A stretch of 64,000 bases of DNA, taken from the NCBI RefSeq assembly GCF_016767715.1, contig NZ_CP050145.1, positions 806,001 through 870,000 of the forward strand. Reading direction: 5' to 3'. The notes under the pieces were generated by a model. That model made no database searches. It had not been told where the DNA came from and worked only from the letters and a program-made list of their open reading frames with translations. Below, piece by piece: positions 5,962-33,364 of this stretch. Made by a program: the position numbers and the translations under genes. Numbering within the stretch: position 1 is the stretch's first letter; each line of letters starts with the position of its first letter. Source of the DNA: Mycobacteroides chelonae. Lineage in GTDB: Bacteria > Actinomycetota > Actinomycetes > Mycobacteriales > Mycobacteriaceae.

Positions 5962-7098
5962 TTATGCGTCTACCCGAGAGCGCAGCAGCCCGAACCCTTC
6001 CACGGACTCGATCGGACGCGGCCCGGGCCCGACATACAGTGCGGCCGGTCGCACCAGCTTGTCGAGACGCTTCTGCTCCAGGATGTGCGCGCTCCAGCCC
6101 GCGGTGCGGGCACAGGTGAACATCGCCGGCATCATGCGGGTCGGCACCTGCGCGAAGTCGAGTATGACCGCTGCCCAGAACTCGACATTGGTCTCGATGA
6201 CACGGTCGGGACGACGTTCGCGCAGCTCGGTGAGGGCGGCCTGCTCAACGGCGGCGGCCACCTCGTAGCGAGTGGCGTCGAGGCGCTTGGCGGTGCTGCG
6301 CAGCACGCGCGCCCGCGGATCCTCGGCCCGGTACACCCGGTGACCGAAGCCCATGAGCTTCTCGCGGCGATCCAGGATGCCCTTGATGACGCCGCGGGCG
6401 TCGCCGGTCTTTTCCGCCTGCTCGATCATGGGCAGTACGCGGGCGGGTGCGCCGCCGTGCAGCGGACCGCTCATCGCGCCCACCGCACCGGAGAGGGCGG
6501 CCGCCACATCGGCGCCGGTGGAGGCGATGACCCGGGCGGTGAAGGTTGAGGCGTTCATACCGTGTTCGGCGGCAGACACCCAGTAGGCGTCGATTGCCTC
6601 GACGTGCTTGGGATCGGGATCGCCCTGCCAGCGAGTCATGAAACGTTCTGTCACGGTGGAGCATTCATCGATCAGGCGTTGGGGTACGGCGGGTTCGGCG
6701 TTGCCTCGTGCGGACTGGGCGACGTACGAAAGCGCCATCACCGAGGCGCGGGCCAGCTGATTTCGCGCGACTGATTCCTCGGTGTCCAGCAGCGGCTCAA
6801 AGCCCCAGATGGGAGCGAGCATGGCCAGCCCGGCCTGCACGTCCACGCGGACGTCCCCGGTGTGAACCGGGATGGGAAAGGGCTCGGCCGGTGGCAGGCC
6901 CTGGCCGAACTTACCGTCGACCAACAGTGCCCATACGTCACCGAAGGTCACCCGCTGGGTGACCAGATCCTCGATGTCGACACCGCGGTAGCGCAGGGCT
7001 CCGCCGTCCTTATCGGGCTCGGCGATTTCGGTGGCGAAGGCCGTCACGCCCTCCAGTCCAGGTGCGAAATCCGCTGGTAGCGGCGCTGCAACCGTCAT
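5962..7098 (-). CDS. citA: Citrate synthase CitA (second citrate synthase)
   Basis: 378 residues from the ATG at 7098 (MTVAAPLPADFAPGLEGV); an ATG ten codons upstream is less likely because the family begins near this point. Family signatures are RYRGVDIEDLV at the N-terminus, GPLHGGAP in the active-site loop, and MGFGHRVYRAEDPRA, which carries the catalytic histidine of the citrate/2-methylcitrate synthase family. It condenses acetyl-CoA with oxaloacetate. A second, more canonical citrate synthase (gltA2) lies at 32.1 kb, so the window holds both paralogues, on either side of the glycolipid locus. It is divergent from pdxH. Confidence 0.93.
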   Translation of the reverse strand: MTVAAPLPADFAPGLEGVTAFATEIAEPDKDGGALRYRGVDIEDLVTQRVTFGDVWALLVDGKFGQGLPPAEPFPIPVHTGDVRVDVQAGLAMLAPIWGFEPLLDTEESVARNQLARASVMALSYVAQSARGNAEPAVPQRLIDECSTVTERFMTRWQGDPDPKHVEAIDAYWVSAAEHGMNASTFTARVIASTGADVAAALSGAVGAMSGPLHGGAPARVLPMIEQAEKTGDARGVIKGILDRREKLMGFGHRVYRAEDPRARVLRSTAKRLDATRYEVAAAVEQAALTELRERRPDRVIETNVEFWAAVILDFAQVPTRMMPAMFTCARTAGWSAHILEQKRLDKLVRPAALYVGPGPRPIESVEGFGLLRSRVDA

Positions 7099-7145
7099 GA
7101 TTCTCGACTCCCTACCTGTGGGTAACAACTCGGTAAAGGCGATTC

Positions 7146-8537: not shown

Positions 8538-10307
8538 TCAGGAAACCCCTACGCGGGTGTCCGAGTCCAGTCGGGTGAACTCGTCCTGGAGATACTGCTC
8601 GACGCAGGCCGCGCGCCGGATTTTGCCGCTCGTCGTGGTGGGAAGTGACCCGGCCGGCACGAGCACAAGGTCTCCGACATTCACGCCGTGCGCGTTGGCT
8701 ATCGCCGAGGTGACCTCGCTCTTGATCTCATGGAGCCAGTGCGCCACCGACTCGTCAGAATCTGCGCGCTTCTTGAGCTCGATGACGGTCACCAGCTTCT
8801 CGGTGCTGTCGAACGGCACCGATATCGCCGCGACTCGACCGCGCGTGATCTCTTGAACCGTCGCCTCGATGTCTTCGGGGTAGTAGTTACGCCCGCGGAT
8901 GATCAGTAGGTCCTTGATGCGGCCGACGATGAACAGCTCGCCGTCGGAGATGAACCCGAGGTCACCGGTTCTCAGCCAGGGGCCTTCTGGAGTACCGGGC
9001 GACGGCTCGGTCACCTTCGCGCCGAAGCACCGCTGCTCCTCGGGTGACTTGCGCCAGTAGCCGGAGGCGACATTCTCGCCGTGCACCCAGATCTCGCCGA
9101 CCACATCCGGTGCGCACTCCCGGTGTGTGTCACTGTCGATGATCCGCACCGTGGGGGATTGCGGCACATGGTATTTGACCAGCGCCGTGCCGGTCCCGGC
9201 CGGGCAGCGCCGCACGCGCCCCGCAGACAGCTCTTCGACGTCGAAATGAGCAGCAGGCTCGGTCTCGCTCCAGGTGCCCGAGGCCACGAAGACGGTGGCC
9301 TCCGCCAGCCCATAGGACGGGCGCATCATGTGGTCCTGGAAGTTGAAGTGCGCGAACCGATCGACGAAGCGCCGCAAGGTGGCCTGCTCGACGCGCTCGG
9401 CACCGCTGATGATGCCGAGAACTCCGCCCAGATCGAGCCCGGCCAGGTCGGCATCGGTCGTCTTGCGGGCCGCCAAATCAAAGGCGAAGTTGGGTGCCGA
9501 GGACCACGCGTGTGGGTTCTTGGCCAGTGCTCGCACCCACCGCGAAGGGCTTTCCAAGAATGCGATCGGGCTGGTCAAGTCGGCGTGGTAGCCGCCCAGG
9601 ATCGGGGCGCAGACACCCAGCACCAGACCCATGTCGTGATAGAAGGGCAACCAGGACACGATGGTGGCATCCGCCGGAATCCTGGAACCGGTGTCCACGA
9701 AGAAGCTGCGCATCAACTGTTCGAAATTCGACTGAAGGTTGCGGTGGGACAGCACGACGCCGGTGGGTGTTCGGGTCGAACCCGAGCTGTACTGCAGGTA
9801 CGCGATGTCCGGTACGTCGGCCGGAACGGTGCTCGGCCCGCCGTCGATGTCGAGCCGCAGCGTGTCGATCTCGATGATCTTGGGGGCGATCTCGAGGCGC
9901 GACTGGTCGACATAGTCGCCCACATCTGAGGCAACCGCCGAGGTCGTGAGAACCACCGAGGGCGAGGTGTCATCGAAGACGGCACTCACCCGGTCAAGGC
10001 TCGAACCGCGGTGTGGCAGCGGGAGCGGCACAGCGATCAGCCCGGCTTGCATGGACCCCAGGAAGGCCAGGATGTACTCGAGGCTTTGTGGAGCCAGGAT
10101 GAGCGCCCTGTCGCCGGCCGCCGCGTGCTGGCCGAGTTCGCGAGCCACGTTGAAGGTGCGACGCGACAACTGTGACCAGGTGAGGCTTTCGGCGACGCCC
10201 GTTGGGCTGTGGCTGTAGTCGGTAAAGGTGAACGCGATGTCATCCGGGCGCAGGCTCGCCCGGCCGTGCAGCATCGACAGGATGGATGACTGGGTTGAAG
10301 GTGTCAT
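8538..10307 (-). CDS. fadD23: Long-chain fatty acyl-AMP ligase (FadD23/FadD21-type FAAL)
   Basis: 589 residues. ANL-superfamily adenylating enzyme: P-loop-like YLQYSSGSTRTPTGVV near residue 170, RPSYGLAEATVFVASG near 325, WLRTGDLGFISDGELFIVGRIKDLLIIRGRNYYPEDIE near 450, and C-terminal SGKIRR with the catalytic lysine. The ends of the motifs (GLAEATVFVA, GRNYYPEDIE) are those of FAALs, which load acyl-AMP onto a PKS rather than making acyl-CoA. It is the last gene of the papA3-mmpL10-PE-fadD operon, 15 bp after the PE gene. Expected role: activation of the starter acid for the divergent PKS. Named by locus context (FadD23 of TPP loci; FadD21 in the related PAT/DAT locus). Confidence 0.9.
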   Translation of the reverse strand: MTPSTQSSILSMLHGRASLRPDDIAFTFTDYSHSPTGVAESLTWSQLSRRTFNVARELGQHAAAGDRALILAPQSLEYILAFLGSMQAGLIAVPLPLPHRGSSLDRVSAVFDDTSPSVVLTTSAVASDVGDYVDQSRLEIAPKIIEIDTLRLDIDGGPSTVPADVPDIAYLQYSSGSTRTPTGVVLSHRNLQSNFEQLMRSFFVDTGSRIPADATIVSWLPFYHDMGLVLGVCAPILGGYHADLTSPIAFLESPSRWVRALAKNPHAWSSAPNFAFDLAARKTTDADLAGLDLGGVLGIISGAERVEQATLRRFVDRFAHFNFQDHMMRPSYGLAEATVFVASGTWSETEPAAHFDVEELSAGRVRRCPAGTGTALVKYHVPQSPTVRIIDSDTHRECAPDVVGEIWVHGENVASGYWRKSPEEQRCFGAKVTEPSPGTPEGPWLRTGDLGFISDGELFIVGRIKDLLIIRGRNYYPEDIEATVQEITRGRVAAISVPFDSTEKLVTVIELKKRADSDESVAHWLHEIKSEVTSAIANAHGVNVGDLVLVPAGSLPTTTSGKIRRAACVEQYLQDEFTRLDSDTRVGVS

Positions 10308-10322
10308 GGTGTCACGTCCGTA

Positions 10323-11489
10323 CTAATTGGGAGGGGCTGAGCGTGTGCCGTTGCCCAGCACGGCCAGAGCGCCGCTGGTGATCTGTGAAAGCGGATCGGC
10401 ACCGCCGCCGAATGTCGCTTGCGAGGCCGGCGCCGTGACCTTGGCGGGGTCAAAACCGCGCACCGGGTCCACCGCGATCGGCGCCGTCGCCGGGTCATCG
10501 TTACGGGAGTAGCCAGCATCCACTCGAGGCTGCAGTATTGCGTCGAGCCTGTTCAGCGTCTCCTCGGGAACGCCGAGGTATTTGAAACCCAGCACCAGGG
10601 GAAGGTGCTGTTCGGGGATGAAGTACGTCGTCGTCGTTCCTCCCCGGGAGTTAACTTCCGTCCGGATGTTCTGCGGCGGAACCATTTTCGGATTGGTGAA
10701 GGCAATCGCCGTATGGCCGGTGGCCAGACCCGCGATGGCATTGGCAACCGCAAACAGGTTGTCCGGCCGGTCCGGCCAGTCCGCGATGCTGTCATACGCG
10801 GAGATGAATTGGTCGGTGTGGTACTGGCTTTCGACCGGAGCCGGCACGGTGTAGTCCATGAACGGCACCACCGATCCGGGTGCGAAGTTCTGCGTCAGGA
10901 AGCTCTCACCGAACGGGTGCCGCGCGACCGGATCGCCGAACGTCGCGAACGTCAGTGAGTCCGGCGCCGGCGCGGTCGGATCGCTTGCCAGTGCTGACTT
11001 AACGGCGTTGAGTACGAGCGCCCCCTCGGAGAGACCCATCGCGGTGCCGGGACCGCCTGTGCGAATGGCGTTTTCGAGGTTGGGTTCGCCGACGTCGATC
11101 GACTCGCCGATGCTGGGGCCGTCTAGACCCAGGCCGGGCATGATCTTCTCCCCGACCGGGCCGATGCCGGGGAACAGGCGCTCCAGGGTGTGACCCTGGA
11201 CCTGCCCAGCCGGGTACCAGATGTTTTCCCGCTTCATGCCCGGGAACCAGTCCTTGCCGGTCATCCGGATGTACTCGTCATAGGGGATGCCGAGCACGTG
11301 CGCACCGCCCAGGGCATATGCGGTCCGATCCGGCGATACCGGCGCGGCCATCGCCGTCCCGTCTGCCGCGATCCGGGGGATAGGCGGTCCGGGCACCTGT
11401 GGGTCATCGGCAACAGCGGACGGGATGCCAAAACAGCCTGTCATGCTGGCGACTACCAGCAGGGCCGCTCCTGCGAGGAGGTCTTTCAT
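10323..11489 (-). CDS. Exported PE-PPE-domain hydrolase/acyltransferase of the TPP-type locus
   Basis: 388 residues. An N-terminal export signal ([19 protein letters not shown]) is followed by a PE-PPE (PF08237-like) alpha/beta-hydrolase domain: [12 protein letters not shown], the nucleophile elbow [10 protein letters not shown] (GxSxG), and a catalytic Asp/His region towards [22 protein letters not shown]. The signal ends in MTGC, a weak lipobox, so it may be a lipoprotein. Homologues (Rv1184c/Chp2 and the TPP-locus PE enzyme) move acyl chains between trehalose molecules outside the membrane. The gene is flanked by mmpL10 (53 bp) and fadD (15 bp). The C-terminal ~70 residues are Pro/Ala-rich and low complexity. 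Confidence 0.87.
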
Positions 11490-11541: not shown

Positions 11542-14500
11542 CTAGCCCGCCTGCGCCGCGGGCGCTGCGGGTGGCGGCGACGTCACCGATGGTCTTTGGC
11601 GCTTGCTGACCCGTGACGGCCACCAGTTGGCCCATCCCACCAACGCCGCGATGGCGGGCACGGTGATGGTCCGGACGACAAAGGTGTCCAGCAGAATTCC
11701 CACGCCGATCACGAAGCCGCCCTGGACCACGATTCCAATGCTAGAGAACAGCAGGCCACCGACCGACGCAGCGAAGATCAACCCGGCCGCGGTGATCACG
11801 CCACCTGTGGAATTCAGGGCGCGGATAATCCCGTAGCGCACACTGTTTGTCGACTCGTCCCGCATTCGTGACACGAAGAGCATGTTGTAGTCGGCGCCCA
11901 CCGCGACCAGCACAACGAAGGCCAAAGGCGGCACCGTCCAATGCAACTGCTGGCCGAGCAGGAATTGGAACGTGAGCACCCCGATACCGATGGCCGCGAA
12001 ATACGACAGCACCACCGACCCGACGAGATACAGGGGCGCCACGATCGCCCGCAGCAACACCATCAGTGTCAGCAGCACGACGATGAGTGTCGCCGCGATG
12101 ATGAACTGGATGTCGTGCTGGTAGTAGTCGCGCGTGTCGCGCAGGGCAGTCGGAAACCCGCCCATCGAAATCGTGGCATCGGCCAGCGTGGTGTTGGGCT
12201 GAGCACCCTTGGCGACATCGCTGATTTGGTTGACCTGGTCCATCGCCTCGGGGCTGAACGGGTTGAGCTTCGTCTGAACGAGGTACCGCACGGAATGGCC
12301 GTCCGGTGAGATGAACGCCTTGGCCGCTCTTTGGAAGTCCGGATTGTTCAGCACTTCGGCGGGAATGTTGAATCCCGCTTGCGACGGGTCTGCGGCATTG
12401 GTCTTCATTGTCAGCAGGAAGGCCGATGCCTGGTTGAGTCCGTTGACGATCACCTTGATCTGCCCGACGAGCTGATCCACACCGCCGGCCACCTGCTGGC
12501 TACCGCCGGCCAGGCGGTCGGCCCCCTGCCGCAGCTGGTTGAGTCCGGCTTGCGGACCGCCGGGCTTGTCCAGGCCCATGGCCTGCAGCCCGTTCATGAC
12601 GCTCATGAGCGAGGCGTTGAGCTTGGTTACCGTCGCGGAAAGTGTTGCTTTGTTGCCCGGTGAATTCCCGAGCTGATGAGCGAGCTGATTGATTTCGTCG
12701 AGGCGTCCGCTGTTGCGTTCGCCGACGAGTCGCTCGAACTGGCCGCGGGTGGTGGCGCAGGAGACGTCGGCATCGCAGACCGGGTTGGCCTGTAATGCGT
12801 TCAACACCGGGTTGATCCACGCGAACATGTCCTTTGCGGCGGAGAAGTTCCACCCCATGTCATTGGCGAGCGCGTTGATGGCATCGACGAGCTTGGCGGC
12901 GTTGTCCACATTCCGCACCAGTTCGTCGCCGCCCGATTTGGTCTTCAGCGAGTTGGACGCGTCGAGCAGGCTCTGCAGACCGGGGACGATCTTGTTGAGC
13001 TGGGTGCGCAGGTCGCCGAGGCTGCCGGCCAAGGTGTTGGCGCCGGCGGTGAGCCGGTTGAGGTCGCTGCTGCGCTGGCTGATCTGGTTGGAGCCGTCGG
13101 CCAGCCGGGTGCCGACGAGCCCTGCCTGATAGGTGGCTCTGAACTCGGGTGGCACCTCGCCGAGCGGGCGGGTGACGCCGCTGACCAGGCCGACGTCGGG
13201 AAGCTGAGCGATGCGGGACGCCATCTGTTCCAAATCGGCGAGAGCCTGTGGGGTGCGCAGGTCACGCGGCGACTGGATGAGGATGTATTCGGGAATGGAC
13301 TGGCTGAGCGGGAAGTGCCGTTCCAACGCGGTGTACCCGACCGAGCTGGGCGCCGACGGCGACACGGCCTTGCGGTCGTCGTAGTTGTAGCGCGCCAGCA
13401 GGGCGCAGCTCCCCAGCAGGGCCAGGACCACCACACTGGCCACCAGGTGTGGAATCGGACGACGAACGATACGTATGCCGGACCGCCGCCAGAACTGCGC
13501 AGTGAGTTCGCGCCGCGGCCTGACCCAGCCGCGTGGACCGGCCAGTACCAGGATTGCGGGCAGCAGGGTCATTCCGGACAGGTACGCGACACCGATCCCG
13601 ATGGCCGACGACACTCCGACCGTCTGGAAGACGCCCATCTTGGCAAAGCTCAAGAGCAAGAAGGTGATACCCACCGTCGTGGCGGACGCGGTGATCACCT
13701 TTCCGATCGACATCATCGCGGCGCGGACCGCCTGGTCGTAGGTCTTACCCGCCCGCAGATAGTCGTGATAGCGACTGATGAGGAAGACCGCATAGTCGGT
13801 GCCCGCGCCGGCCAGGATCGCGCTGAGGAACACGATGGACTGGTTTGAGACGCCGGCCCCGGTGAGCTGCGAGTAGGCCGCCACCACGGACTGCGCGATC
13901 ACCAGCGAGGACCCGATTGTCACCAGTGGAAGCATCATCGTCAGTGCGCTGCGATAGACCAGCAGCAGCACCGCGAGCACCAAGATGGCGATCGCGAGTT
14001 CGATCGGTAGGCGGTCCTGTTGTCCTGCGACGGTGAGGTCGGCGACCGTGGCCGCTGGACCGGTGATGTGGACGGTCGTGGGACTGCCCTGGGCGCTGCG
14101 CTGGATGAGGCCGGTAACCCGGTTGTACGAGTCGAAGGCCTTGGGCGTACCCAACTCGCCCGCAAGGCCGATCGGCAGGATCCAGGTTTTGTTGTCCTGA
14201 CTCGTCAGAAACTTTCGCAGCTCGGGTGTGCCGATGAAGTCCTGGACCGACACGACGCTGGTCAGGTCGTGTCGTACCGCATCCACCACCTTGCGGTAGG
14301 TCGCGGCGTCCTCGGGTCCCAGTCCGTTCTCGTTGATGAACACGACCAGGAGCAGGTCGTCATTGCTCGATTCGTGAAACGCCTCGGTCATCTTCTTGGC
14401 GGCCACGCTCGACGGAGCATCGGCCGGCAAAATGGCGAGCGGATGCTTCTCCGCCATTTCGGTCAGTGAGGGGAAGGTCAGCGGCAGGGCGATGGCCAGC

Positions 14501-14562
14501 GCCACCCAGGCGCCTATCACCGCCCATGGCCATCGCACCACGAGATCGGCTAGCCGCCGCAT
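11542..14562 (-). CDS. mmpL10: MmpL10-type RND lipid exporter
   Basis: 1006 residues with the MmpL plan: TM1 near residues 12-32, a first periplasmic domain, TM2-6 (about 180-370), a long second periplasmic domain (about 400-790) rich in repeated QL/GxNQL-type heptads that may form a coiled coil, then TM7-12 (about 795-985). The paired Asp-Tyr proton-relay motifs are visible as [16 protein letters not shown] in TM4-5 and [15 protein letters not shown] in TM10-11. In the related locus of M. tuberculosis MmpL10 exports diacyltrehaloses; here the same role is expected for the TPP precursor. It lies 33 bp downstream of papA3 in one operon. Confidence 0.93.
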
Positions 14563-14595: not shown

Positions 14596-16017
14596 CTACG
14601 CGACGCGTCCCCAGTGACCGCTGTCCGCGACTCGCCCGCACACCGACTTCATGGCCTCCATGTAGCGCAGCGCCGACTTCTCGGCGATCGGGTTATCGGG
14701 ATGCATGATCGCCATCGCGGTCCCTTCCCCGTACCGGAATATGTAGATGGTCAACTGGTAGGAGAATCGGCCGTCCGGATAGATGCCGATGTTGTCGGCA
14801 AGGCCCAGCTCGCCCGCCGCGAGGATGGCGTTGAGCGGAGCGGCGCCACCGTGGAAGAAGTTCGACACCGGAAAGTTCGGTTCCGGCCACTTCAGCCACG
14901 GCGCCAATTCCAGGACCCGGTAGTACGGCACCCGGGACATGTCCAGACTCGAATCGAAGGCGGTCTGTGCGGCGTAGGCCGCATCGTTGAAAGAGGTTGC
15001 CGCGATCGGAACGGTGATCGGGATCAGGCCGGTAAACCAGCCTTGCGTCATGAAATTGTCGCTAGCTGTGCGTGAATCCCTCGGAGTCAGACCGTAATAG
15101 GTGACCGCCCCGGTGAATTCGTGCTCGACCAGGCCGAGGCAGGCGAAGAGACCACCGACGAACCGTGAGCCGGCAGTCGAGCAGGCGGACTCGAATCGGT
15201 CCGTCTGCTCCGGGCTCATCAGCGACAGGGAGGTCATGGTGCTGGTGGTCGCTTCGGCCGGGTTGCCCAGTGGAAGCGGGAACTCGGGAAACGTCCCATT
15301 GTTGTTCTCGGCAAAGTCGATCCACGCGCGTACCCCGGGCGAATCCAGGGTTAATGCCGATGTGAACTCGCGCTCGCGAGTGCAGAAGTCGTCGAAGCTG
15401 CCGGCATCGGGAAGCGTGAGGGCCTGCCCGCCTCCGCTCAGCGCGGAGTACATTCCGTTGGCTTCCATCATGGTGGTGCCAATCAACGTTGCATCACCAT
15501 GTACGTGGTCCATGGCAGCGAAGAACGTGAAGTGGTTCTCGCTCTGGATGATTCCAAAGGTGAAGCATCCCCATTCCAGTGGGCTCGGTATGTCGATGAC
15601 GTGGTTGCGTATTTCATCGACCGTCATATGCCCTTGTGTTACAGGCGCGAACTCGATTTCGCTTGGATCGCTGATGGAGTGCCGTACGAACGTCCCGTCC
15701 GCGGCGCGCTCGAACCAGCTGCGGAAGGTGTCATGCCTACGCAGGTATGCGTTGAGGGCATGGTCCATCGCGGCGATGTCGCACTGGCCCGCGACATCGC
15801 AGCTGGCGATTATTTGGCGCGAGAAGTTTAGGCCAGCTTCGTTCCGTTCGTAGTAATTTCGCAGATGTTGGCTCTGCATGTAGCTGACTGGCACCAAACT
15901 CACAGGTGCTTGCCGGGCGTTCTCGGCCGCGTCTGGGGTGGGGTGCCACGAGGTGACGGAGCCGGGGCTCAACGTCCATTCATCAAGTGCGCCAACAGTT
16001 ATCGTGCCAATGCGCAA
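14596..16017 (-). CDS. papA3: Acyltransferase PapA3
   Basis: The TTG at 16017 (LRIGTITVGALDEWTLSPGSV) with GAGAGGA 7 bp upstream gives 473 residues, the usual PapA3 length, and the N-terminus aligns with the family. An in-frame ATG at 16194 would add 59 residues of arginine/glycine-rich sequence with no family character. The condensation-domain-like fold is shown by SWHPTP, the HxxxD active site in MDHVHGDATL, and PDGRFSYQLTIYIFRYGEG near the C-terminus. PapA3 acylates trehalose at two positions using polyketide thioesters from the PKS. First gene of the operon papA3-mmpL10-PE-fadD, divergent from pks. Confidence 0.92.
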   Translation of the reverse strand: MRIGTITVGALDEWTLSPGSVTSWHPTPDAAENARQAPVSLVPVSYMQSQHLRNYYERNEAGLNFSRQIIASCDVAGQCDIAAMDHALNAYLRRHDTFRSWFERAADGTFVRHSISDPSEIEFAPVTQGHMTVDEIRNHVIDIPSPLEWGCFTFGIIQSENHFTFFAAMDHVHGDATLIGTTMMEANGMYSALSGGGQALTLPDAGSFDDFCTREREFTSALTLDSPGVRAWIDFAENNNGTFPEFPLPLGNPAEATTSTMTSLSLMSPEQTDRFESACSTAGSRFVGGLFACLGLVEHEFTGAVTYYGLTPRDSRTASDNFMTQGWFTGLIPITVPIAATSFNDAAYAAQTAFDSSLDMSRVPYYRVLELAPWLKWPEPNFPVSNFFHGGAAPLNAILAAGELGLADNIGIYPDGRFSYQLTIYIFRYGEGTAMAIMHPDNPIAEKSALRYMEAMKSVCGRVADSGHWGRVA

Positions 16018-16317
16018 AGCGCCGTCCTCTCGCTCGGCCGGCCCCGCTCCGGCATCTCTCGTCGGTGGCCCAACATACCCTCGGTTTGACCGCACAACGC
16101 GCGGTCGGCCAAGACCCGGAAACCCCATGCGCCACATGGCATACCGGGAATAACTAGAACTTACTGTCCTAGTTACCACGAAGTTTGGGAACAACAGTGC
16201 GCACGATACTTGTTCGGCTAGAGTCGCGTTCGCACCCGCCGATGTCCAGAGTCACATTCTTGGTCCGACGATGTCGAGGGCCACTCTCCCCACCCGCCGA
16301 CGCAAGGAGGCCACAGC
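16018..16317. other. papA3/pks divergent intergenic region (300 bp)
   Basis: No gene is supported here. It is less GC-rich than the surrounding coding sequence, particularly around 16140-16225, and must hold the promoters of both TPP-type transcripts. It contains the interrupted palindrome at 16151-16175. An AGGAGG ribosome binding site for pks lies at 16304-16309 (CGCAAGGAGGCCACAGC before the ATG at 16318). A TAGAGT hexamer at 16219-16224 could be a -10 element for pks. Confidence 0.6.
16151..16175. promoter_or_regulatory. Interrupted palindrome TAACTAG-N11-CTAGTTA between papA3 and pks
   Basis: Perfect 7-bp arms (16151-16157 and 16169-16175) separated by 11 bp, so the centres of the half-sites are 18 bp apart, close to two helical turns, as expected for a dimeric repressor bound to one face of the DNA. 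It sits 134 bp from the papA3 start and 143 bp from the pks start. No regulator gene is adjacent to the locus. Confidence 0.5.
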
Positions 16318-19300
16318 ATGGAATCCGCTGACCATCCGATCAATCCCGCCCCACGTTTTGCAATCATCGGATATGCAGCGCGTTTTCCCGGTGCCGCCAA
16401 CGCGGACGAGTTCTGGGACGTGCTGCGTGAAGGCCGTGATGCGATATCGGAGGTACCCGCTGACCGGTGGGATGCCGATGAATTCTTTGACTCTGAACCC
16501 GGAGCTCCCGGCAAGGTCGTAACCCGTCGTGCCGGCTTCGTCGATGACGTGACGGGGTTTGACGCGCCGTTCTTCGGTATGTCGACGCGCGAGGTCAGGC
16601 TGATGGACCCGCAGCACCGACTGTTGCTGGAGATGGCATGGCGGGCAGTGGAGCATTCCGGAATCGCCCCAACGGATTTGGCCGAGACCAACGCCGGCGT
16701 GTTCGTCGGTTTGGCCACCCATGACTATCTGGGAATGGCGTCCGATGAGCTGACTTTCCCGGAGATCGAGGCCTACATGGCCATCGGCACCTCCAATGCC
16801 GCGGCCGCCGGCCGCATCAGCTACCGGCTGGGGTTGCAGGGACCGTCGGTTGCCGTCGATACGGCGTGCAGCTCGTCATTGGTAGCAATTCATCAAGCGT
16901 GCCAAGCACTTCAACTCGGAGAGTGCGATCTCGCGCTGGCCGGCGGTGCGAATGTCCTGCTGACCCCGGCCACAATGATCACGTTCTCGCATGCGCACAT
17001 GCTGGCGCCCGACGGCAAGTGCAAGACATTCGACGCGGCCGCGGACGGCTACGTGCGCGGTGAGGGATCCGGCGTCATCGTCATCAAGCGCCTTGAGGAT
17101 GCGATCCGCGACGGTGATCGCGTCCGGGCCGTGATCCGGGGCAGTGCGATTAACCAGGACGGCGCATCGGGCGGGTTGACGGTGCCCAATGGCGTTGCTC
17201 AGCAGCGTGTTATCGCCGATGCGCTCAAGCGTGCCGGTGTCGCGCCGAGTGACGTCGGGTATCTGGAGGCGCACGGCACCGGAACATCGCTGGGCGATCC
17301 GATTGAGGCCCAGGCCGCTGGCGCGGCGTACGGCATCGGCCGTGCGGCGAACGATCCGTTGCTGATCGGCTCAGCGAAGACGAACATCGGACATCTGGAG
17401 GCGGCCGCGGGGATCGCGGGCGTCATCAAGGTGGTGCTGTCACTCGAGAATGAATTGTTGCCGCAGCACCGCAACTTTCAGAATCCGTCGCCGCACATCC
17501 CCTGGGACAGGCTCCCGGTGGAGGTCGTCAAGGAGGCCACCGCGTGGGAGCGCAACGGGCGCCCACGTATTGCGGGAGTTAGCTCGTTCGGGTTCGCCGG
17601 GACCAATGCTCACGTCATTCTCGAAGAGGCTCCGGTAGCGGCCGAGATCGAAACGGCCGAAGAGCCGGAGTCGACGGGGGACCGGTTCAGCATTCTGCCG
17701 CTGTCGGCGCGCACACCCGCCGCGTTGGTGCAGATCGCCGATCAATACCGCAGCTGGCTGAACGGGCACCCCGAGGCCACGCTGGCGGACCTGTGCTTCA
17801 CCGCCGGAGTGGGGCGCGCACATTTGGAGCATCGCGCCGCGCTGGTGGTCAACTCCCGTGAAGCCGCCGTGGAGCTGCTCGGCGCCGTCGCCGATGACCG
17901 CCCGGCGCCGGGTCTGGGGCGTGGAGAATCCCATGACACGCCCAAGACGGCGTGGCTGTTCACCGGCCAGGGCAGCCAGTACCCGGGCATGGCCCGTGAG
18001 CTGTTTGACACCGAGCCGGTGTTCGCCGAGACGCTGAAGCGTTGCGCGGCGGTGGTGGCCGATGTTCTCGAAAAGCCGTTATTGGATGTCATTTTCGATG
18101 TAGACGGTCCAGATGCCGAGGCGACGCTGCGGCAGACCACCTATGCACAGCCCGCCTTGTTCGCAGTGGAGATGGGCTTGGCCCGGCTCTGGCAATCGTG
18201 GGGCTTCGAGCCGGATGTGGTGTTGGGTCACAGCGTTGGTCAGTACGCGGCAGCCTGCGTCGCGGGCGTGTTCAGCCTCGAGGACGGCGCTGCGCTGATG
18301 GCCGAGCGCGGCCGCTTGTTCGGCAGCTTGCCCGCCGGCGGGCGGATGGCAGCGATATTCGCCGCCGCCGAGCGGGTGGAGAGCCTGACTGACGATTTCC
18401 CCAGTCTCTCGGTTGCCGCGTATAACGGTGCCAACACCGTATTGTCAGGTCCCGCACAGGATCTGGAAAAGGCGGTGGCGGGGCTGGTCGCCGAGGGCAT
18501 TCGGTGCGACTTCCTGGAGACCAGTCACGCGTTCCACTCGGCCTTGCTCGACCCTATCCTCGACGAGTTCGAGGCGTATGCCGGCAAGTTCAATTACAAG
18601 ACACCACAACGGATCCTGATCGACAACCGCACGGGCACCGCGCTGGGCAGAAGTGTGAAACTGGACGGTGCGTACTGGCGCCGGCACGCACGTCAACCGG
18701 TGGAGTTCGCCAAGAGCGTGCGCACCCTCGCCGACATGAATTGCAAGGTGTTGTTCGAGATCGGCCCGCAACCGGTGCTCACCGCCGCCGCGCTCCGCGC
18801 CTGGCCCGACCCGGCCACCGCGCCGCGGGCGATAGCCTCCTTGCGTCGAAACACAGCGGATCACAGGCAGATCACCGAAGCCGCTGCCGACGCATACGTC
18901 CTGGGGCACCTGCCCGATTTCGGTGCGTTCCGGCACGGCCCCGCGCGAAAGCTCGACCTGCCCACCTATCCGTTCGAGCATCGCCAGTACTGGTTCAGTG
19001 ATAAGCGAAACGCCGACAACCGCGACGCCACGAACCAGCAACAGCCGGCTTCCGGGCCGCGCACGGAGGCCGTCCGTCTGCTCGAGGACGGAAAGATCCA
19101 GGAACTCGCGAACCTGCTTGGCGGTACAAGCGGAGACCAGCAGACTCTGGCGGTCCTCACAAAGCTTGCGGCACAACATAATCAGCAACGCACCACGCAG
19201 ACGATCGCGGATGCTCGCTACCAGTTCCGGTGGGACAAGTCGCCAACGCCGCTCGCGGGTGCGGATACCAGCACGGCTACCACCTGGCTTCTCGTGGGTG

Positions 19301-22300
19301 ATGTAACCGGCGCGGCCGCGCCGCTGGTTGATGCGCTCACTGCACGTGGACAGCAGTACCGGGTTCTCGGGTTGCCGACATCCGACGCCGACGAGCAGCA
19401 GCTTGCCGACGCGTTCCGTTCCGCGGTATCAGGCGGTTCCGCGCTCCGCATCGTGCATGTCGCGGCCCTCGATGGGGGTACCTCCTCGGCGCGGTCGTTG
19501 CTGCGGATACAACACCAGATACTGGGCGGAACGCGACGGCTCTTCCGTGCGGCCGCGGCTGCTGAACTGCGGGCACCCATCTGGGTGATAACCCGTGGCG
19601 CCCAGCGAATCACCGAAACCGACACCGTGGCGCCAGAACAGAGTGCCCTGTGGGGATTCGGCCGTGCGGCAGCCCTCGAGCTTCCACAAGTGTGGGGTGG
19701 ACTTGCTGATCTGGCCGATGCCAGTGCTGCCGAATGGTCACAGTTCATCAGCCGAGCTTCCGCATCGAGCGACGCCGCAGCCAGGGAGGACCAGATCGCA
19801 TTGCGCGATCAGTCGGTCTACGTTCCCCGGCTCGTGCGGCGGGAGAATCTGCCCAGCGGTACTCCGCTGGAAATCCGCGACAACGGAACCTACTTGGTCA
19901 CCGGCGGGTTGGGTTCGATCGGGCTGGAGATCGCCGGGTACCTGGCCGCGTGCGGCGCCAAGAATCTGGTGCTGACCAGTCGGCGCGAACCGAACGAGGC
20001 GGCACAGCAGCGCATCGACGCACTGGGTGCGCAGCACGGCTGCGAGGTCCGGGTGGTCACCGCCGATGTCGCGGACGCACATGACGTGGCACGCCTGCTG
20101 GCAGGCGTGCAGGCCGAGTTGCCGCCGCTGGCGGGCATCGTCCATGCCGCGGGGGAGATCGGCACCACCCCGCTCAGTGATCTCGACGACACCGAGGTAG
20201 ACCGTGTCTTCGCCGGCAAGGTCTGGGGCGCCTGGCATCTGAGCGAAGCAGCGGCCGATCTGAAGCTCGACTTCTTCATCAGCACCTCCTCCATCGCCTC
20301 GGTGTGGGGTGGCTTTGGCCAGACCGCGTACAGCGCGGCCAATGCATTCCTCGATGGACTTGCCTGGCGTCTGCGTGAGCAGGGTGTCGCGGGGACCAGC
20401 GTTAACTTCGGTCCGTGGACGGCAGGCATGGCCGACGCGGAATCCCGGGCGCGACTGGAACAACGTGGAATCAAGACGTTGTCCCCGTCCGATGCGCTGG
20501 CTGGCTTGGCGGATGTGGTGGCGGCTTCCCAATCGAATGGTGGGGCGCAGGGCGTCGTCGCCCGCATCGACTGGGCCCGTTTCCTACCGCTCTACCAGCA
20601 GGCCGGGAGACGCGCATTCCTGGCGGAGCTGGAGCGTGAGGTGCCTTCGCATCTGGCCACATCTCAGGGTGTCGCGCAGTCGGGCACGACGCAGCTGGTC
20701 GAACGGCTTGCGGGAGCTCCGGTACAGCAGCGCAAGAAGCTTCTGACGGACTACCTGCGCGATGCGGTGGCCGAGGTGACGCGCGTGGACGTCTCGGAGA
20801 TCCGTGAGGACGCGGGGTTCTTCGATCTCGGCATGGATTCCCTGATGGCCGTCGAACTGCGCCAACGCATGGAACAGGGTGTGGGCAAGGAGATTCCGGT
20901 CACCCTGGTGATGGATCATCCGCGCATTTCCGATGTTGCCGACTATCTGCTCGGCGAGGTGCTGGGCCTCAGCGAACAAGCCAAGCCGGCGCCACAACAG
21001 GTATCGGCTGTCACGGATCGCACCGACGAGCCGATCGCGATTGTCTCGGTGTCATGCCGATTCCCCGGCGCGCCGGATCCGGAGGCCTTCTGGGAGGTGC
21101 TTTCCGGAGGCGTCGACGCGATTCGTGAGGTGCCCGAGGACCGTTTCGACATCGACGAGTTCTATGACCCGGATCCGGAGACCGCCGGCAAGACGTACAC
21201 ACGCTTCGGCGGATTCCTGGACGGTATCGATGGATTCGATCCCGAGTTCTTCGGCATTTCCCCGCGTGAGGCCGTCTGGATCGAGCCGCAGCAGCGACTG
21301 ATGCTCGAAACGGTATGGGAGGGCTTGGAACGCGCCGGATACTCGCCGGCCGCGCTGCGCGGCAGCCGAACCGGCATCTTCGCGGGCGTAGGTGCCAACG
21401 AGTACGCGCACCTGCTGTCGTCGGAATCGATCGACAAGATTGAGCCCTACTTCATCACCGGTAACGCGCTCAACGCGATATCGGGACGTGTTGCGTTCGC
21501 GCTGGGATTCGAGGGGCCCGCGGTGGCAGTGGATACCGCGTGCAGCTCGGCGTTGGTGGCGGTCCACCAGGCCGTGCAGGCCCTGCACTCCGGTGATTGC
21601 GATCTGGCAGTGGCCGGTGGTGTGAACGTTCTGTTGAGCCCGGTGACAGTCATTGCCGCCTCGCGCGCCAGGATGCTTTCACCGGTCGGTCGCTGCAAGA
21701 CGTTCGATGCGTCCGCCGACGGCTATGTGCGCAGTGAAGGCTGCGGGATTCTTGTGCTCAAGAGATTGAGCGATGCGGAGCGCGACGGGGACCGAGTCCT
21801 GGCCGTGATTCCGGGTAGCGCGGTGAACCAGGACGGCGCATCCAGCGGACTGACCGTTCCCAACGGAGGGGCGCAGCAACGACTCATCGGAACGGTGCTT
21901 GCGCGTGCCGGTCTGGCGGGCGGGGACGTCGATTACCTTGAGGCGCATGGAACGGGCACCCCGCTGGGTGATCCGATCGAGGTGCAGGCGGCGGCCGCGG
22001 CCTACGGTGGCTCGCGCGAGGCAGACCGGCCGCTGCTGATGGGCTCGGTCAAATCCAACATCGGCCACACCGAATCAGCTTCCGGTGCAGCAGGTCTCAT
22101 CAAGGTGGTGCTCTCGCTCCAAAACGGGGTGCTGCCGCAGAGTCTGCACTTCGAAAAGCCGTCCCCGCACATCCCGTGGGAGTCGCTGCCAGTTCGGGTG
22201 GTGGACAAGGCCATTCCATGGGAGCCCAACGGTCGGCCACGGCGCGCCGGGGTGAGCTCGTTCGGATTCACCGGCACCAATGCCCACGTGCTCATCGAGG

Positions 22301-25300
22301 AGGCACCGCGACGGGCAGTGGTGACGGATGAAGGTGGCCCCGACGACACCGCCGCTACACCAGAAGTTCAGGGCGACAAGGTGAACGTCCTGCCGTTGTC
22401 CGCCAGGTCGCCGGAGGCGCTGGCCGCGGTGGCGCAGCGTTATGAGTCCTGGTTGAGCGCCCATCCAGAGGTCGACATCGAGGATGTCTGCGTCACCGCG
22501 GGGAGTGGGCGGTCGCACTTCGAACATCGTGCCGCTCTCGTCGTGGACTCGGTGGAGTCCGCGCGCGAGGGGCTGGCCGAGTTGGTTCAGAACCGGCTGC
22601 GCCCCGGTGTGGTTCGTGGCGAGCACACGAACCACCCAACAACGGCCTGGCTGTTCACCGGACAGGGCAGTCAATATCCCGGTATGGCGCGTGAGTTGTT
22701 CGACGCAGAGCCGGTTTTCGCCGAGACCGTCACACGCTGCGCGGAAGCCGTCAAGGACATCGTCGAGCGCCCCTTGCTGGAGGTGATGTTCGCCACCGAT
22801 CGCGAAACGGGCGGAGAAGCCGGGAAGGTACTGCGGCACACGTCATTCGCGCAGCCAGCCATCTTCGCCGTAGAGATGGGTCTGGCCCGGCTGTGGCAGT
22901 CGTGGGGCATTGAGCCCGACGTGGTGCTGGGCCACAGTGTCGGCCAGTACGCGGCCGCATGCGTCGCCGGAGTGTTCAGTCTGGAGGACGGTGCGCGACT
23001 GATCGCCGAGCGCGGCAGGCTCTTCGGCAGTCTGCCCGCGGGCGGGCGCATGGTGGCCGTCTTCAGCGACGCCAAGCATGTCGAACAGATCGCGAGTGAT
23101 TTTCCGCGTGTGTCGGTGGGCGCCTACAACGGACCGAACACCGTGCTGTCGGGTCCGGGCGAGGATGTGGAACAGGCGGTCGCGCGCTTCGAGGAGGAGG
23201 GAATCCGGTGCACCTGGCTGGAGACCAGCCATGCGTTCCATTCCGAGCTGCTGGACCCCGTCCTCGACGAATTCGAGTCGTACGCAGCGCAAGTACAGTT
23301 CGCGACTCCCACGTTGCCGCTGGTGTGCAACCGCACGGGTGCGGTGCTGACGGCACAGACCCCGATCGACGCCCAGTACTGGCGACGGCATTCCCGTCAG
23401 CCGGTGCAGTTCGCCGAGAGTGTGCGCACCGTGGCCGCGCTGGGTTGCTCGGTGCTGATGGAGATTGGCCCGCAGCCGGTGCTGACCGGCGCCGCGGTGC
23501 AGGTCTGGCCGGAGCACTTGGCCGCTCCGCGGGCGATTGTCTCGCTGCGCAAGGGTGTTGGCGACCGACGCCAGATCGCCGAGGCACTGGCCGCGGCGTA
23601 CGTCGGCGGTCATCGGCCCAATTTCGCCGCGCTGCGGCGCCACCCGCGTAACACGCTGGAATTGCCGACCTATCCCTTCCAGCGCCGCCGCTTCTGGCCG
23701 AAGTCGTCCGGCGCCGCCATCGAAGGCGGGGGCGGCTTGTCCGCGGGCATCCTGGGTCGAGGCGAGGACCTGGCCTCCGGCGATTCTGTCTACATCAGCC
23801 GGTTGTCGGTCAGGTCGCAGCCCTGGCTGTCCGACCACGTTATCTACGGCACCGTCGTCGTACCCGGCGCAACGTACGCCGCGATGGCCCTAGCGGCCGT
23901 CGGCACTCCGGCACGGGCGAAGGATGTTTTCTTCTACGAGCCGATTATTTTGCCGGAGAAGAGTTCTCGTGAGGTGCAGCTGACGCTGCATCCGCTGGAG
24001 GATGGCAGTGGGTCGAAGTTCCAGGTGCACAGCCGTCCCTACGGCGAACGCGATGTTGACTGGTCACTGAACGCCGAAGGCACCGTCGTGCCGGGTGTCG
24101 ATGACAGCGCCGACGATGCGGCCGGCCAGTCCTCGGAGGCCGAGCCGGTTGACGCGGCCATCGAGCGGATGGAGCGCATGCGTCCGAACGAGCTGTTCGA
24201 AACCTTCGCTGATCTGGAACTGTCCTGGGGCCCAACCTGGTCCGGCTCTCTGAAGTCACTCTGGCTTGGTCAGGGTGAGGCCATCGGCGACGTCCTCGTC
24301 GGTGAAGAACTTGCAGAACAGCTCGGTACCGAGCCGATGCACCCGGTGCTGATGGATCTGTGCACCGGTGTGGCCTTCCCGGCGTTCCCGGCCCTGCTCG
24401 CGGCTGAGCAGGGCATCAACGATCTGTTCCTGCCCTTGCGGTACGGCCAGGTGACGTTGAAGGAAAAGATGCCACGGCGCTTCTACTGCCGGGCCCGGTG
24501 GCATGAGAGCGCGCTGGACAGCGAGACCCAGGTCTTCGATCTCGATTACCTCGATCGCGATGGCCGTCACCTCGGTGGGATTCGCGAGTTCACGGTGAAA
24601 CGTGCGCCGCGTGAGGCATTGCTGCGTGGGCTGGGCGGCGATGCCACCCGCCTGCTGTACACCCTTGGCTGGCACGAGGTTCCGGTGCCAGCCGCGGAGG
24701 ACGGCACCGCGACGGCAAGCGGTACCTGGCTGATCGCCGGGTTCGACGAGCTGGCCGCCAGGGTGCCGGGCTGCATCCCGTTCGATCGGACGAGTAATCC
24801 GGAACTTCTCGGACAGGTGCTGGCAGAGGCCAAGGAGCGCGGCGTGCCGTTCTCCGGTGTCGTCTGGCGTGCCGCCGCACCGGGCGCGCAGGAGTCGAGC
24901 ACCGATGAGATCGCGCGTCTGGAGACCGAGATCGCCAACCTGCTCAGTGCTGTGCATACGGTGCAGAACGGCGCACAAAATGGCGTGAAACTTCCCGATG
25001 GTCTCTGGATCGTCACCGAGCGCGCCGTGGCCACCGAATCGGGCGAGCCGGTCGATCCGGTGCAGGCTTCCCTGTGGGGATTCGGGCGCACCACCATCAA
25101 CGAGGAACCGGCGCTGCGTGCCAAGCTCGTTGATGGTGACGGCTCACCTGAGGCTGTACAGGCGCTGGCGAATCTATTGGTTACGCCGGTCGAGGAGCCG
25201 GAAATCGCTGTGCGGCAGGGCAAGCTGCTCGCCTCGCGGTTGTTGCCGTGGTCACGCAGCGGCAATCTCACGGTGCCGCGCGGGAGCGACTACGCCCTGT

Positions 25301-27429
25301 TGCCCACCGAACGGGGTGCCATCGACAACCTGCGGATCACCGAGAAGGAGGTCGAGGCGCCGGACGAGGGCTACGTGCAGGTGCGGGTGGAGGCCGCCGG
25401 TCTCAACTTCCGTGACGTGCTCAACGTGCTAGGTCTGTACCCGGGTGACCCGGGCCCGATCGGCGGTGACTTCGCAGGTGTCGTCACGCAATTGGGTGAG
25501 GGTGTTACCGAGGTCGCGGTGGGTCAGCGGGTCTATGGCTCCATGCAGGGTGCCTTCGCCAGCCGGTTCAACGCACCGGCTCAGTTCCTGGCACCGATTC
25601 CGGACGGGATCAGCGCGGTCGAGGCCGCCACGATTCCCGCTGCGGCGCTGACGGTTCGACTCGCCTTCGACTGGGCGCAGCTGAAGCCCGGCGATCGCGT
25701 GCTCATCCACGCGGCCAGTGGTGGTGTGGGATTGGCTGCGATACAGATGGCGCAACAGTGCGGTGCCGAGGTTTATGCGACAGCGAGCACTTTCAAGCGT
25801 GCGACCGTGCGCAAGCTCGGCGTGAAGTATGTGTATGACTCGCGTACCACCGATTTCGCCGACCAGATCCTCGCCGACACCGATGGGCATGGCGTTGACG
25901 TGGTGCTCAACAGCCTCACCAGCGAAGGGTTCGTCGAGGCGACCGTGCGGGCCACCGCCAAGAACGGCCGTTTCGCCGAGATCGCCAAGCGTGATATCTG
26001 GACTTCGGAGCAGATGGCCGAGGCACGCCCAGATATCGCCTACGAGATCGTCGCGCTGGACACGGTGATGTTCCAAGAGCCCGAACGTATTAGGGGCCTG
26101 CTGACGGAGGTTTCGGACGGTTTGGCCAAGGGGGAGTGGACACCACTGCCCGCTGAGATCTACCCGCTGACGGAGGCCAGGACGGCATTCCGCCGCATGC
26201 AGCAGGCCCGCCATATCGGCAAGATCGTGTGCCAGATGCCGAATCCACTGTCACCACAGCAGGATCGGACCTATCTGATCACTGGTGGACTGGGCGCGAT
26301 CGGCCTGCACACCGCGTCGTATCTGGCTCAGCTCGGTGCCGGTGACATCGTGCTGACCAGCCGCCGTGCTCCAGATGTGGATGCGCAACGGTTGATCGAG
26401 GAGATCAGCGAGCGCTCCAAGGCCCGCATCCACGTCTTCACCGCCGATGTCGGCGAGGAGTCCGAGGTTGTGAAGCTGCTGGAGCGGATTCGGGCGGAGC
26501 TGCCCCCGCTCGGCGGCATCGCGCATCTGGCAGGCGTGCTCGATGACGCCCTGCTGGGTCAGCAGAGCGTGGAGCGGTTCCGGACCACCTTGGCGCCCAA
26601 GGCGTTCGGTGCCGATTACCTTGACAGGCTGACGAAGGACGAGGATCTGGACTTCTTCATCGTGTCCTCCTCGGTGTCGAGCTTGTTCGGTTCGCCTGGT
26701 CAGTCCAACTACGCGACGGCCAATGCGTGGCTCGACGGTCTGATCGCGCGGCGCAGGTCGCAGGGTCTGCCCGCCACCGGCGTCAACTTTGGCCCCTGGG
26801 GGCAGGGAGGTATGGCCTCCTCGGAGGCGGCGACCGCGAATATCAGTGCGCAGGGCCTGATTCCGCTGGATCCCTCGGCGGCACTCGCGGCTCTGGCCGA
26901 GGTCATTGCCAACGGCACGGGCCAGGCCACCGTCATCAAGGCCAACTGGCAGCGTGCGGCGAAGGTGCTGGGCAGTTCGCGTCCGCCGATCCTGGACCTC
27001 GTGCTGCCGAGTGCCGTGGGCGAGGTGACCGGTGACAGCGAGTTGCTCAAGCAACTGATGGAGATACCGGTGCCGCAGCGGGCTGGTTTCGTGACCGAGT
27101 TCCTGCAGCGCGAGGTGCAGAACTTCCTGCGCCTGGCGCAGCCGCCGGCCGCGACGAGCCGGTTCTTGGACCTCGGTACGGATTCGCTGATGGCGATCGA
27201 GCTGCGTAACCGGCTGCACAGCCAGTTCGGCGGCAAGTTCACCATCAACGCGACGGCGGTGTTCGACTACCCGACCATTGGTGGGCTCGGTGAGTACCTG
27301 GTGGCGCAATTGCCGGATGCGGAGTCCGAATCGCAGGAAGCACAACCCGCGGCGGAGCCAGCGCAGTCCGAGTCAGAGCCGGACACGGTGCCCGCGCCAT
27401 CTGACGAAGTATCCGAGCCGGCGCGGTGA
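16318..27429 (+). CDS. Bimodular type I polyketide synthase of the TPP-type locus (KS-AT-KR-ACP-KS-AT-DH-ER-KR-ACP)
   Basis: 3703 residues; ATG preceded by AAGGAGG. Module 1: KS (about 13-440, Cys184 in DTACSSS), AT (about 545-860, Ser639 in GHSVG, HAFH motif), KR (about 1190-1400, GGLGSIG), ACP (Ser1508 in LGMDSLM). Module 2: KS (about 1570-2000, Cys1742), AT (Ser2207, HAFH), DH (H2507 in [10 protein letters not shown]), ER (about 3010-3300, HAASGGVG), KR (about 3315-3500, GGLGAIG), ACP (Ser3623). HAFH in both ATs predicts malonyl-CoA, hence unbranched chains. KR1 lacks LDD and has the A-type tryptophan ([11 protein letters not shown]); KR2 has LDD (B-type). No loading ACP and no thioesterase are present, so the FAAL should load KS1 and PapA3 release the product. 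An acidic tail follows ACP2. Confidence 0.95.
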
Positions 27430-32008: not shown

Positions 32009-32086
32009 CCAGGCGCCGTGTGGAGGGAGCGACTACCTTCTCTATGAACGTTCTCATGGAGCCGCTGAACCTCAGAAGGGATGCCT

Positions 32087-33364
32087 GTGGCCGACAACAA
32101 CGATTTCGCTACTCTCCAGTACCCCGGAGGCGAAACGAAGCTGGATATCGTCCGCGCGACCGAAGGCTCGGATGGCTTCGCGCTGGGGAAACTGCTGGCT
32201 GATACCGGCTACACCACGTTCGATGCGGGGTTCGTCAATACCGCATCGACCAAGAGTGCGATCACCTATATCGACGGCGACGCCGGCATCCTGCGCTACC
32301 GCGGGTACCCGATTGAGCAGCTGGCGGACAAGTCCACCTTTATCGAGGTGAGCTACCTGCTGATCTACGGCGAGCTGCCCACCCCGCAGCAGCTGGAGGA
32401 CTTCACCACCAAGATCCAGCGTCACACCCTGCTGCATGAGGACCTCAAGCGGTTCTTCGACGGCTTCCCGCGTAACGCGCACCCGATGCCGGTGCTTTCC
32501 AGCGCCGCGAACGCGCTCAGCGCCTACTACCAGGACTCGCTGGACCCACATGACGACGCGCAGGTCGAGCTGTCCACGATCCGGTTGCTCGCGAAGCTGC
32601 CGACCATCGCGGCCTACGCGTACAAGAAGTCCGTCGGGCAGCCGTTCCTGTACCCGGACAACACGCTTACGCTCGTTGAGAACTTCCTGCGGATGACCTT
32701 CGGTCTGCCGGCCGAGCCGTACGAGGTGGATCCGGAGATCGTGCGGGCGCTCGACATGTTGCTGATCCTGCACGCCGATCACGAGCAGAACTGCTCGACC
32801 TCGACGGTGCGCCTGGTCGGTTCGTCCGACGCGAACCTGTTCACCTCTGTCTCCGGTGGCATCAACGCGCTGTGGGGCCCGCTGCACGGCGGCGCGAACC
32901 AGGCGGTGTTGGAGATGCTGGAGCGCATTCGCTCCGAGGGCGGCGACACCCATGACTTCGTTCGACGGGTCAAAAACCGCGAGGACGGCGTCAAGCTCAT
33001 GGGCTTCGGGCACCGTGTCTACAAGAACTACGATCCGCGTGCGCGCATCTGTAAGGAGCAGGCCGACAAGATCCTCGGCAAGCTCGGCGGGGACGACCAG
33101 CTACTCGAGATCGCCAAGGCCCTCGAGGAAGCCGCGCTCACCGACGACTACTTCATCGAGCGCAAGCTGTACCCGAATGTCGACTTCTACACCGGTCTTA
33201 TCTACCGGGCCATCGGCTTCCCGACCCGCATGTTCACCGTGCTCTTCGCACTCGGGCGACTCCCGGGCTGGATTGCGCACTGGCGTGAGCTCCATTCGGA
33301 GCCGGGCAAGATCGGCCGTCCGCGCCAGATCTACACCGGCTACGGGGAGCGTCAGTACCCGTAG
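32087..33364 (+). CDS. gltA2: Citrate synthase GltA2
   Basis: 425 residues starting at GTG 32087 (MADNNDFATLQYPGGE), six bases after AGAAGGG; an ATG two codons upstream is less well spaced. Hexameric-type citrate synthase of the TCA cycle: GDAGILRYRGYPIEQLA, HADHEQNCSTSTVRLVGSS, GPLHGGANQAVLEML, GFGHRVYKNYDPRA (catalytic His) and NVDFYTGLIYRAIGFP (catalytic Asp). It is the main citrate synthase paralogue (Rv0896); citA at 6-7 kb is the second. Confidence 0.96.
   Translation: MADNNDFATLQYPGGETKLDIVRATEGSDGFALGKLLADTGYTTFDAGFVNTASTKSAITYIDGDAGILRYRGYPIEQLADKSTFIEVSYLLIYGELPTPQQLEDFTTKIQRHTLLHEDLKRFFDGFPRNAHPMPVLSSAANALSAYYQDSLDPHDDAQVELSTIRLLAKLPTIAAYAYKKSVGQPFLYPDNTLTLVENFLRMTFGLPAEPYEVDPEIVRALDMLLILHADHEQNCSTSTVRLVGSSDANLFTSVSGGINALWGPLHGGANQAVLEMLERIRSEGGDTHDFVRRVKNREDGVKLMGFGHRVYKNYDPRARICKEQADKILGKLGGDDQLLEIAKALEEAALTDDYFIERKLYPNVDFYTGLIYRAIGFPTRMFTVLFALGRLPGWIAHWRELHSEPGKIGRPRQIYTGYGERQYP

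Follow-up and report, generated by a model that had tools for sequence, protein, structure and literature searches.

The 64-kb stretch of the Mycobacteroides chelonae genome analysed here (the window) carries a large plus-strand open reading frame for a bimodular type I polyketide synthase (PKS), here called the TPP Pks, next to genes for products similar to PapA3, MmpL10, PE and FadD23 (Table 1). These four genes are transcribed divergently from pks, and because they adjoin it the locus is the trehalose polyphleate (TPP) locus of this species; TPP production by the strain is predicted from the genes. Pfam assigns to the one polypeptide the domain order ketosynthase (KS)-acyltransferase (AT)-ketoreductase (KR)-acyl carrier protein (ACP) for module 1, followed by KS-AT-dehydratase (DH)-enoyl reductase (ER)-KR-ACP for module 2, i.e. 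two each of KS, AT, KR and ACP but only one DH (aa 2483-2769, in module 2) and one ER. An earlier note on this DNA, made from the letters alone, had read the same domain order and had assigned the locus to phleic acid and TPP synthesis, which the neighbouring genes support. We propose, as the account that we consider probable, that the TPP (phleic acid) Pks is an iterative module pair in which the DH of module 2 (DH2) dehydrates twice per round and the ER (ER2) reduces C2=C3 only.

Table 1. Positions in the window of the TPP Pks, its domains and the adjoining genes
Feature	Position	Strand	Remarks
FadD23-like fatty-acid--AMP ligase	8538..10307	-	
PE acyltransferase	10323..11489	-	NF041570, above its cut-off
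MmpL10-like transporter	11542..14562	-	MMPL family
PapA3-like acyltransferase	14596..16194	-	condensation domain
Bimodular type I PKS (TPP Pks), 3703 aa	16318..27429	+	
KS1	16345..17637 (approximate)	+	DTACSSS at 16858
AT1	17935..18897 (approximate)	+	TSHAFHS at 18520; malonyl-type
KR1 catalytic core	19885..20421	+	A-type signature: Trp present, no LDD
ACP1	20749..20949	+	LGMDSL site at 20827
KS2	21028..22155	+	nearest solved relative of KS2-AT2 is CurL
AT2	22648..23610	+	TSHAFHS at 23224; malonyl-type
DH2	23764..24624	+	sole dehydratase domain found in the window; CurH-type
ER2	25366..26229	+	
KR2	26257..26991	+	B-type signature, LDDALL at 26539
ACP2 phosphopantetheine site LGTDSL	27172..27189	+	

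We searched the orthologs of Pks with DH2 (phmmer), taking the best 120 of 1690, to which all ortholog counts below refer; in 119 of these proteins the module-1 part gave no DH match. Although module 1 is incomplete in eleven of the 119, the stretch from AT1 to KR1, in which a DH would be expected, was covered to at least 80% in 118 of the 120. The exception (P0007) is a 5730-aa ortholog whose extra N-terminal stretch holds the DH-like match and may be a fusion, an additional module or an assembly error. This search was used in place of a motif-spacing test for a hidden module-1 DH, the VWG pattern of which matched elsewhere too. Of the matches in the whole genome, none of the 15 to MaoC (PF01575) and none of the 12 to FAS1_DH (PF13452) falls in the window, and of the three to PS-DH (PF14765) the one inside the window is DH2 itself. 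Because module 1 has no DH, alternation of the two modules alone cannot yield a double bond and, with a single DH in both synthase and window, the double bond must come from DH2 or from an enzyme elsewhere in the genome.

Among solved structures, the closest relative of DH2 is the CurH DH (146.8 bits, next 66.4), the wild-type DHs of CurJ, CurF and CurK scoring 60.0, 55.4 and 54.6 bits, respectively. The relationship also holds in reverse, since a search of this genome with the CurH-like DH of Moorena gave DH2 as the top match (144 bits, next 65); the second-best solved relative of the Moorena domain reached only 72 bits. In a tree of 20 rows the DH2 orthologs and the CurH-like DH formed one clade with a support of 93/91, which is below the program's starred level, and the same clade was supported at 98/98 in a 15-row tree that omits L027 (the next relative), the long-branched L052, fluvirucin, rifamycin and borrelidin. 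The two domains have sequence in common around the active Asp (EPxHPVLxDxCT) and close to the C-terminus (FTVKRAP). The predicted model of DH2 (mean pLDDT, the predicted local distance difference test score, 83), built from an alignment (A1) that already contained a CurH-like row, had CurH as its first Foldseek match (4.5e-29 versus 1.2e-22 for CurJ). Fold searching was dropped as a means of discrimination, with CurH, CurJ, CurF and CurK all within 2.6 Z units.

The catalytic His of DH2 (in a 10-residue motif at 23836) and its catalytic Asp (in a 10-residue motif at 24340-24369) are kept in all 120 orthologs, in which the side motifs DLCTG and WGP[TNI]W are also invariant. The latter reads WGPTW in the window (24226-24240), where YGPxF is usual, and DH2 matches neither of the commonest side motifs of PKS DHs, DxxxQ/H and YGPxF. 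Because the CurH-like DH likewise departs from them (DACTR and YGPML), this departure is no argument against activity. The kinship to the CurH DH suggests that DH2 is a CurH-type dehydratase, for which a double-acting role is predicted. The DHs of CurJ and CurH are reported to convert 3,5-diols to E,E dienes by sequential eliminations (PMC12828468), and a double-acting DH of this type would make the proposal chemically workable.

The resemblance to the curacin pathway extends to the module that precedes the DH. The CurG/CurH pair makes a cis CH=CH-CH2-CH2 unit, which lies in curacin at the place corresponding to these two modules. We represented the CurG/CurH pair by one locus, L031 of Moorena sp. 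SIO3H5, in which the gene directly before the CurH-like one encodes a CurG-like KS-AT-KR-ACP protein with no DH. The KR of this protein lacks LDD (HAAGVGRLDT) and has the Trp (SVWGSRGQTHY), the same code as in KR1; in L031 the CurH-like module breaks off ahead of any ER or KR core. Thus, a DH-less module with an A-type KR signature precedes a module with a CurH-type DH in each system, indicating the same division of labour in both. In epothilone synthesis, to which we liken the pair by description only, the cis double bond is made by the DH of the module that comes after a DH-less KR module. The systems differ in that the mycobacterial bimodule is probably used five to six times and CurG/CurH once, and in that CurG and CurH are two proteins with docking domains (PMC9113145) whereas the mycobacterial pair forms one polypeptide.

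KR1 reads HAAGEIGTT (20143-20169), i.e. it has no LDD, and in its 11-residue motif at 20299-20331 a Trp precedes the catalytic Tyr by eight residues, as the earlier note had seen. The Trp is kept in all 120 orthologs and LDD occurs in none. KR1 therefore shows both of the A-type features that we mapped, LDD and Trp being those taken from the criteria of PMC11228615 (motifs 3, 5 and 6 lie outside this mapping), which suggests an L-3-hydroxy product, as predicted from sequence. Among KRs of actinobacterial KS-AT-KR-ACP modules, 87-98% of each type are reported to satisfy the full criteria (PMC11228615). Among solved structures, the KR1 core is closest to the KRs of 4imp and AmphB, each of which bears the Trp. 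The nucleotide motif TGGLGxIG is at 19900 in KR1 and at 26281 in KR2. The LDD that the earlier note had placed after AGV in KR2 is there in all 120 orthologs, but the B-type assignment drawn from it, although expected for a DH-ER module, is looser, LDD being merely a rough guide to B-type KRs in such modules (PMC11228615). The malonyl-type HAFH motif, also reported earlier for both ATs, is found in AT2 of all 120 orthologs and in AT1 of the 119 counted; because 11 of the 120 are N-terminally incomplete, most of their apparent AT1 matches are probably AT2, which leaves about 109 true AT1s. The same incomplete proteins account for an apparently high variability of KS1, which was rejected as an artefact (median identities 89.7% for KS1 and 92.3% for KS2).

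Motif invariance in this sample partly reflects shared ancestry because the 120 orthologs are close relatives (KR1 identity 78-100%). In 16 further loci with Pks identities from 65.7 to 80.3%, the KR1 and DH2 motifs are nonetheless kept in all 16. Within the sample, one M. chelonae ortholog (P0006) is identical in the KR1-ACP1 region and an M. abscessus ortholog (P0019) is 88% identical there. The KR1-ACP1 piece has no second match above 35% identity elsewhere in the 5.06-Mb genome.

In M. smegmatis, where it is described as MSMEG_0408-0412, and in M. abscessus the same locus makes TPP (PMC10465359, PMC11633156). The TPP Pks proteins of these species, MSMEG_0408 and MAB_0939, are described with the same locus genes as here, and MAB_0939, at 3,697 residues, is the same size as the Pks of the window (PMC10465359); no difference was noted between these proteins and the M. 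chelonae member. In 12 of 16 related loci PapA3, MmpL10 and PE are found beside pks, and 9 of these 12 have a FadD match within the stretch fetched. A pattern search for the HHxxxDG motif of PapA3 found no match in the frame scanned. Two genes of the citrate-synthase family (5962-7128 and 32081-33364) flank the locus about 25 kb apart.

The phleate chains reported are C36:5 and C40:6 (PMC5902629). A C16 starter extended by five or six C4 rounds, each leaving one double bond, gives these two formulas, so the arithmetic fits the four-carbon double-bond period that had been claimed from the letters. The double bonds of C36 phleic acid are at positions 4, 8, 12, 16 and 20. No statement on the cis geometry of phleic acids was found in the parts of the literature searched, Burbaud 2016 and Fiers 2016 being outside them.

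From these domains, their motifs and conservation, the locus and the kinship of DH2, we infer the following cycle. KS1-AT1 would extend the chain by two carbons and KR1 would leave an L-3-hydroxyl, which would be handed on to module 2 because module 1 has no DH. KS2-AT2 would then add two further carbons and KR2 reduce the new ketone, whereupon DH2 would first eliminate the 3-hydroxyl; loss of the KR1-derived 5-hydroxyl by way of the conjugated system would follow and give a 2,4-dienoyl chain. If ER2 reduces C2=C3 only, the double bond at C4 would remain, the net gain per round would be -CH=CH-CH2-CH2-, and the chain would return to KS1 for five or six rounds before PapA3 transfers it to trehalose. 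An L-configured KR1 hydroxyl would make the remaining double bond cis; this Z outcome, which the A-type signature of KR1 suggests, rests on that signature.

Several observations weigh against this account or parts of it. As for the DH, VIA-align 2 ties CurH and CurJ as fold relatives of DH2 (34.4 and 33.7). As for the pairing, module 1 is not closest to CurG, KS1 being 55% identical to the CurH-like and 41% to the CurG-like protein, and KR1 is closer to KR2 than to the CurG KR. The pair is therefore alike in design rather than inherited whole. The synthase also has cyanobacterial affinities beyond DH2, since KS2-AT2 are nearest to CurL (872 versus 697 bits); no specific curacin kinship was found for ER2 (CurK 222.6 versus 214.1 bits) or for KR2, whose best solved relative is the tylactone synthase 2z5l. 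As for geometry, the KR motifs are given just moderate accuracy for non-actinobacterial PKSs, which bears on KR1 as part of a synthase with cyanobacterial affinities, and of 42 KRs that go with Z-type DHs only 5 are reported to have the Trp, albeit in modules with a DH of their own (PMC11228615). Kinship alone disfavours cis because CurH is reported to give E,E dienes, although a gladiolin DH is reported to yield an E,Z diene (PMC12828468).

An alternative route to the same product is that DH2 reaches back to ACP1 and dehydrates the L-3-hydroxyl there, giving a Z-2-enoyl chain, before working normally on module 2. It would draw on the same single DH, A-type KR1 and product arithmetic, and both routes lead to the same 2,4-dienoyl chain and product; sequence fits vinylogous loss on ACP2 and direct loss on ACP1 equally. 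Dehydrations of this kind in epothilone and iso-migrastatin are the subjects of papers cited in PMC9899208. However, the nearest relative of DH2, CurH, is reported to act on 3,5-diols (PMC12828468), and we consider the reach-back unlikely, if worth keeping in view.

The double dehydration that we favour might also proceed as proposed but leave trans (E) double bonds, with DH2 yielding E,E-dienes as reported for CurH (PMC12828468). The A-type signature of KR1 speaks against this outcome. So, weakly, does the reported 13C range of 127-130 ppm (PMC5524727), which by general knowledge of nuclear magnetic resonance is at least as fitting for cis. We regard E double bonds as improbable, with the qualification that this estimate overlaps with those for the other alternatives and is not to be added to them.

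It is quite improbable that a free-standing dehydratase, whether like HadABC or HadD of the type II fatty acid synthase (FAS-II) or like MaoC, acts in trans on module 1. The MaoC-type and FAS1_DH-type matches in the genome, some of them in common, would provide candidates, but all lie outside the window, and the CurH kinship of DH2 would stay unexplained. HadD in particular is not needed because M. smegmatis without hadD is reported to retain TPP (PMC5902629). Finally, the earlier note's own model, in which module 1 itself makes the unsaturated unit in alternation with module 2, has the domain order and KR types as described but is contradicted by an anatomy without a module-1 DH in nearly all orthologs searched unless DH2 or another DH is added, and can hardly be right. 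The observation behind that note was sound, and its interpretation of a known enzyme was incomplete and is partly supported.

Coming back to the iterative module pair with DH2 acting twice, a search with DH2 of 298 genomes of the order found the family confined to the genus, with matches in 25 same-genus genomes besides that of the window and none in 9 of those listed. The lowest full-length match inside the genus scored 489 bits, whereas the best outside (L027) scored 92; in one genome (G183) the match is split in two, the parts scoring 373 and 218 bits. L027 was also tried as a third case of the pairing and ruled out because its module and the preceding one both carry DH and KR.

Besides their TPP copy, three genomes encode another bimodular PKS, in which the KR1 and DH2 motifs are the same (DH2 identity 72, 72 and 70%). 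The second-PKS loci are L032 and L048 in G102, L034 and L050 in G043, and L045 and L049 in G258, and the respective TPP copies are L033, L035 and L046. No PapA3, MmpL10, PE or FadD23 was found at the second-PKS loci in the stretch fetched upstream. Where scanned, the upstream side (L032, L045) has EryCIII-like glycosyltransferases and a methyltransferase and the downstream side (L049) a nonribosomal peptide synthetase (NRPS), a setting that presumably resembles that of glycopeptidolipid (GPL) loci. A further genome (G172; L042 and L051) has a single bimodular PKS, 65% identical, whose neighbours are a PKS-NRPS protein of 2483 aa and a protein with a Rieske domain; this genome has no PE acyltransferase match at E 1e-30. 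We consider the chances even that the full picture holds, in which a single CurH-type DH removes two waters per round for five to six rounds, so that a polymer-like chain of cis CH=CH-CH2-CH2 units is spun by a cis-AT type I PKS, and in which mycobacteria have copied this engine into two or more further types of locus, one of them GPL-like and another beside a PKS-NRPS.

Long polyunsaturated chains are rare in bacteria, and this Pks is probably the source of the polyunsaturated fatty acids in a glycolipid of the cell surface. TPPs are reported to be required for infection by the therapeutic mycobacteriophages BPs and Muddy (PMC10465359). The simple reading that module 1 makes the double bond is corrected by the present analysis. 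If the proposed mechanism is true, the origin of the TPP double bonds would reduce to a question about a single domain, the action of DH2 on a 3,5-diol, and the double-dehydrating DHs would gain an iterative member. If our reading of the code is right, one double bond in every four carbons is likewise to be expected in the chains made at the paralog loci.

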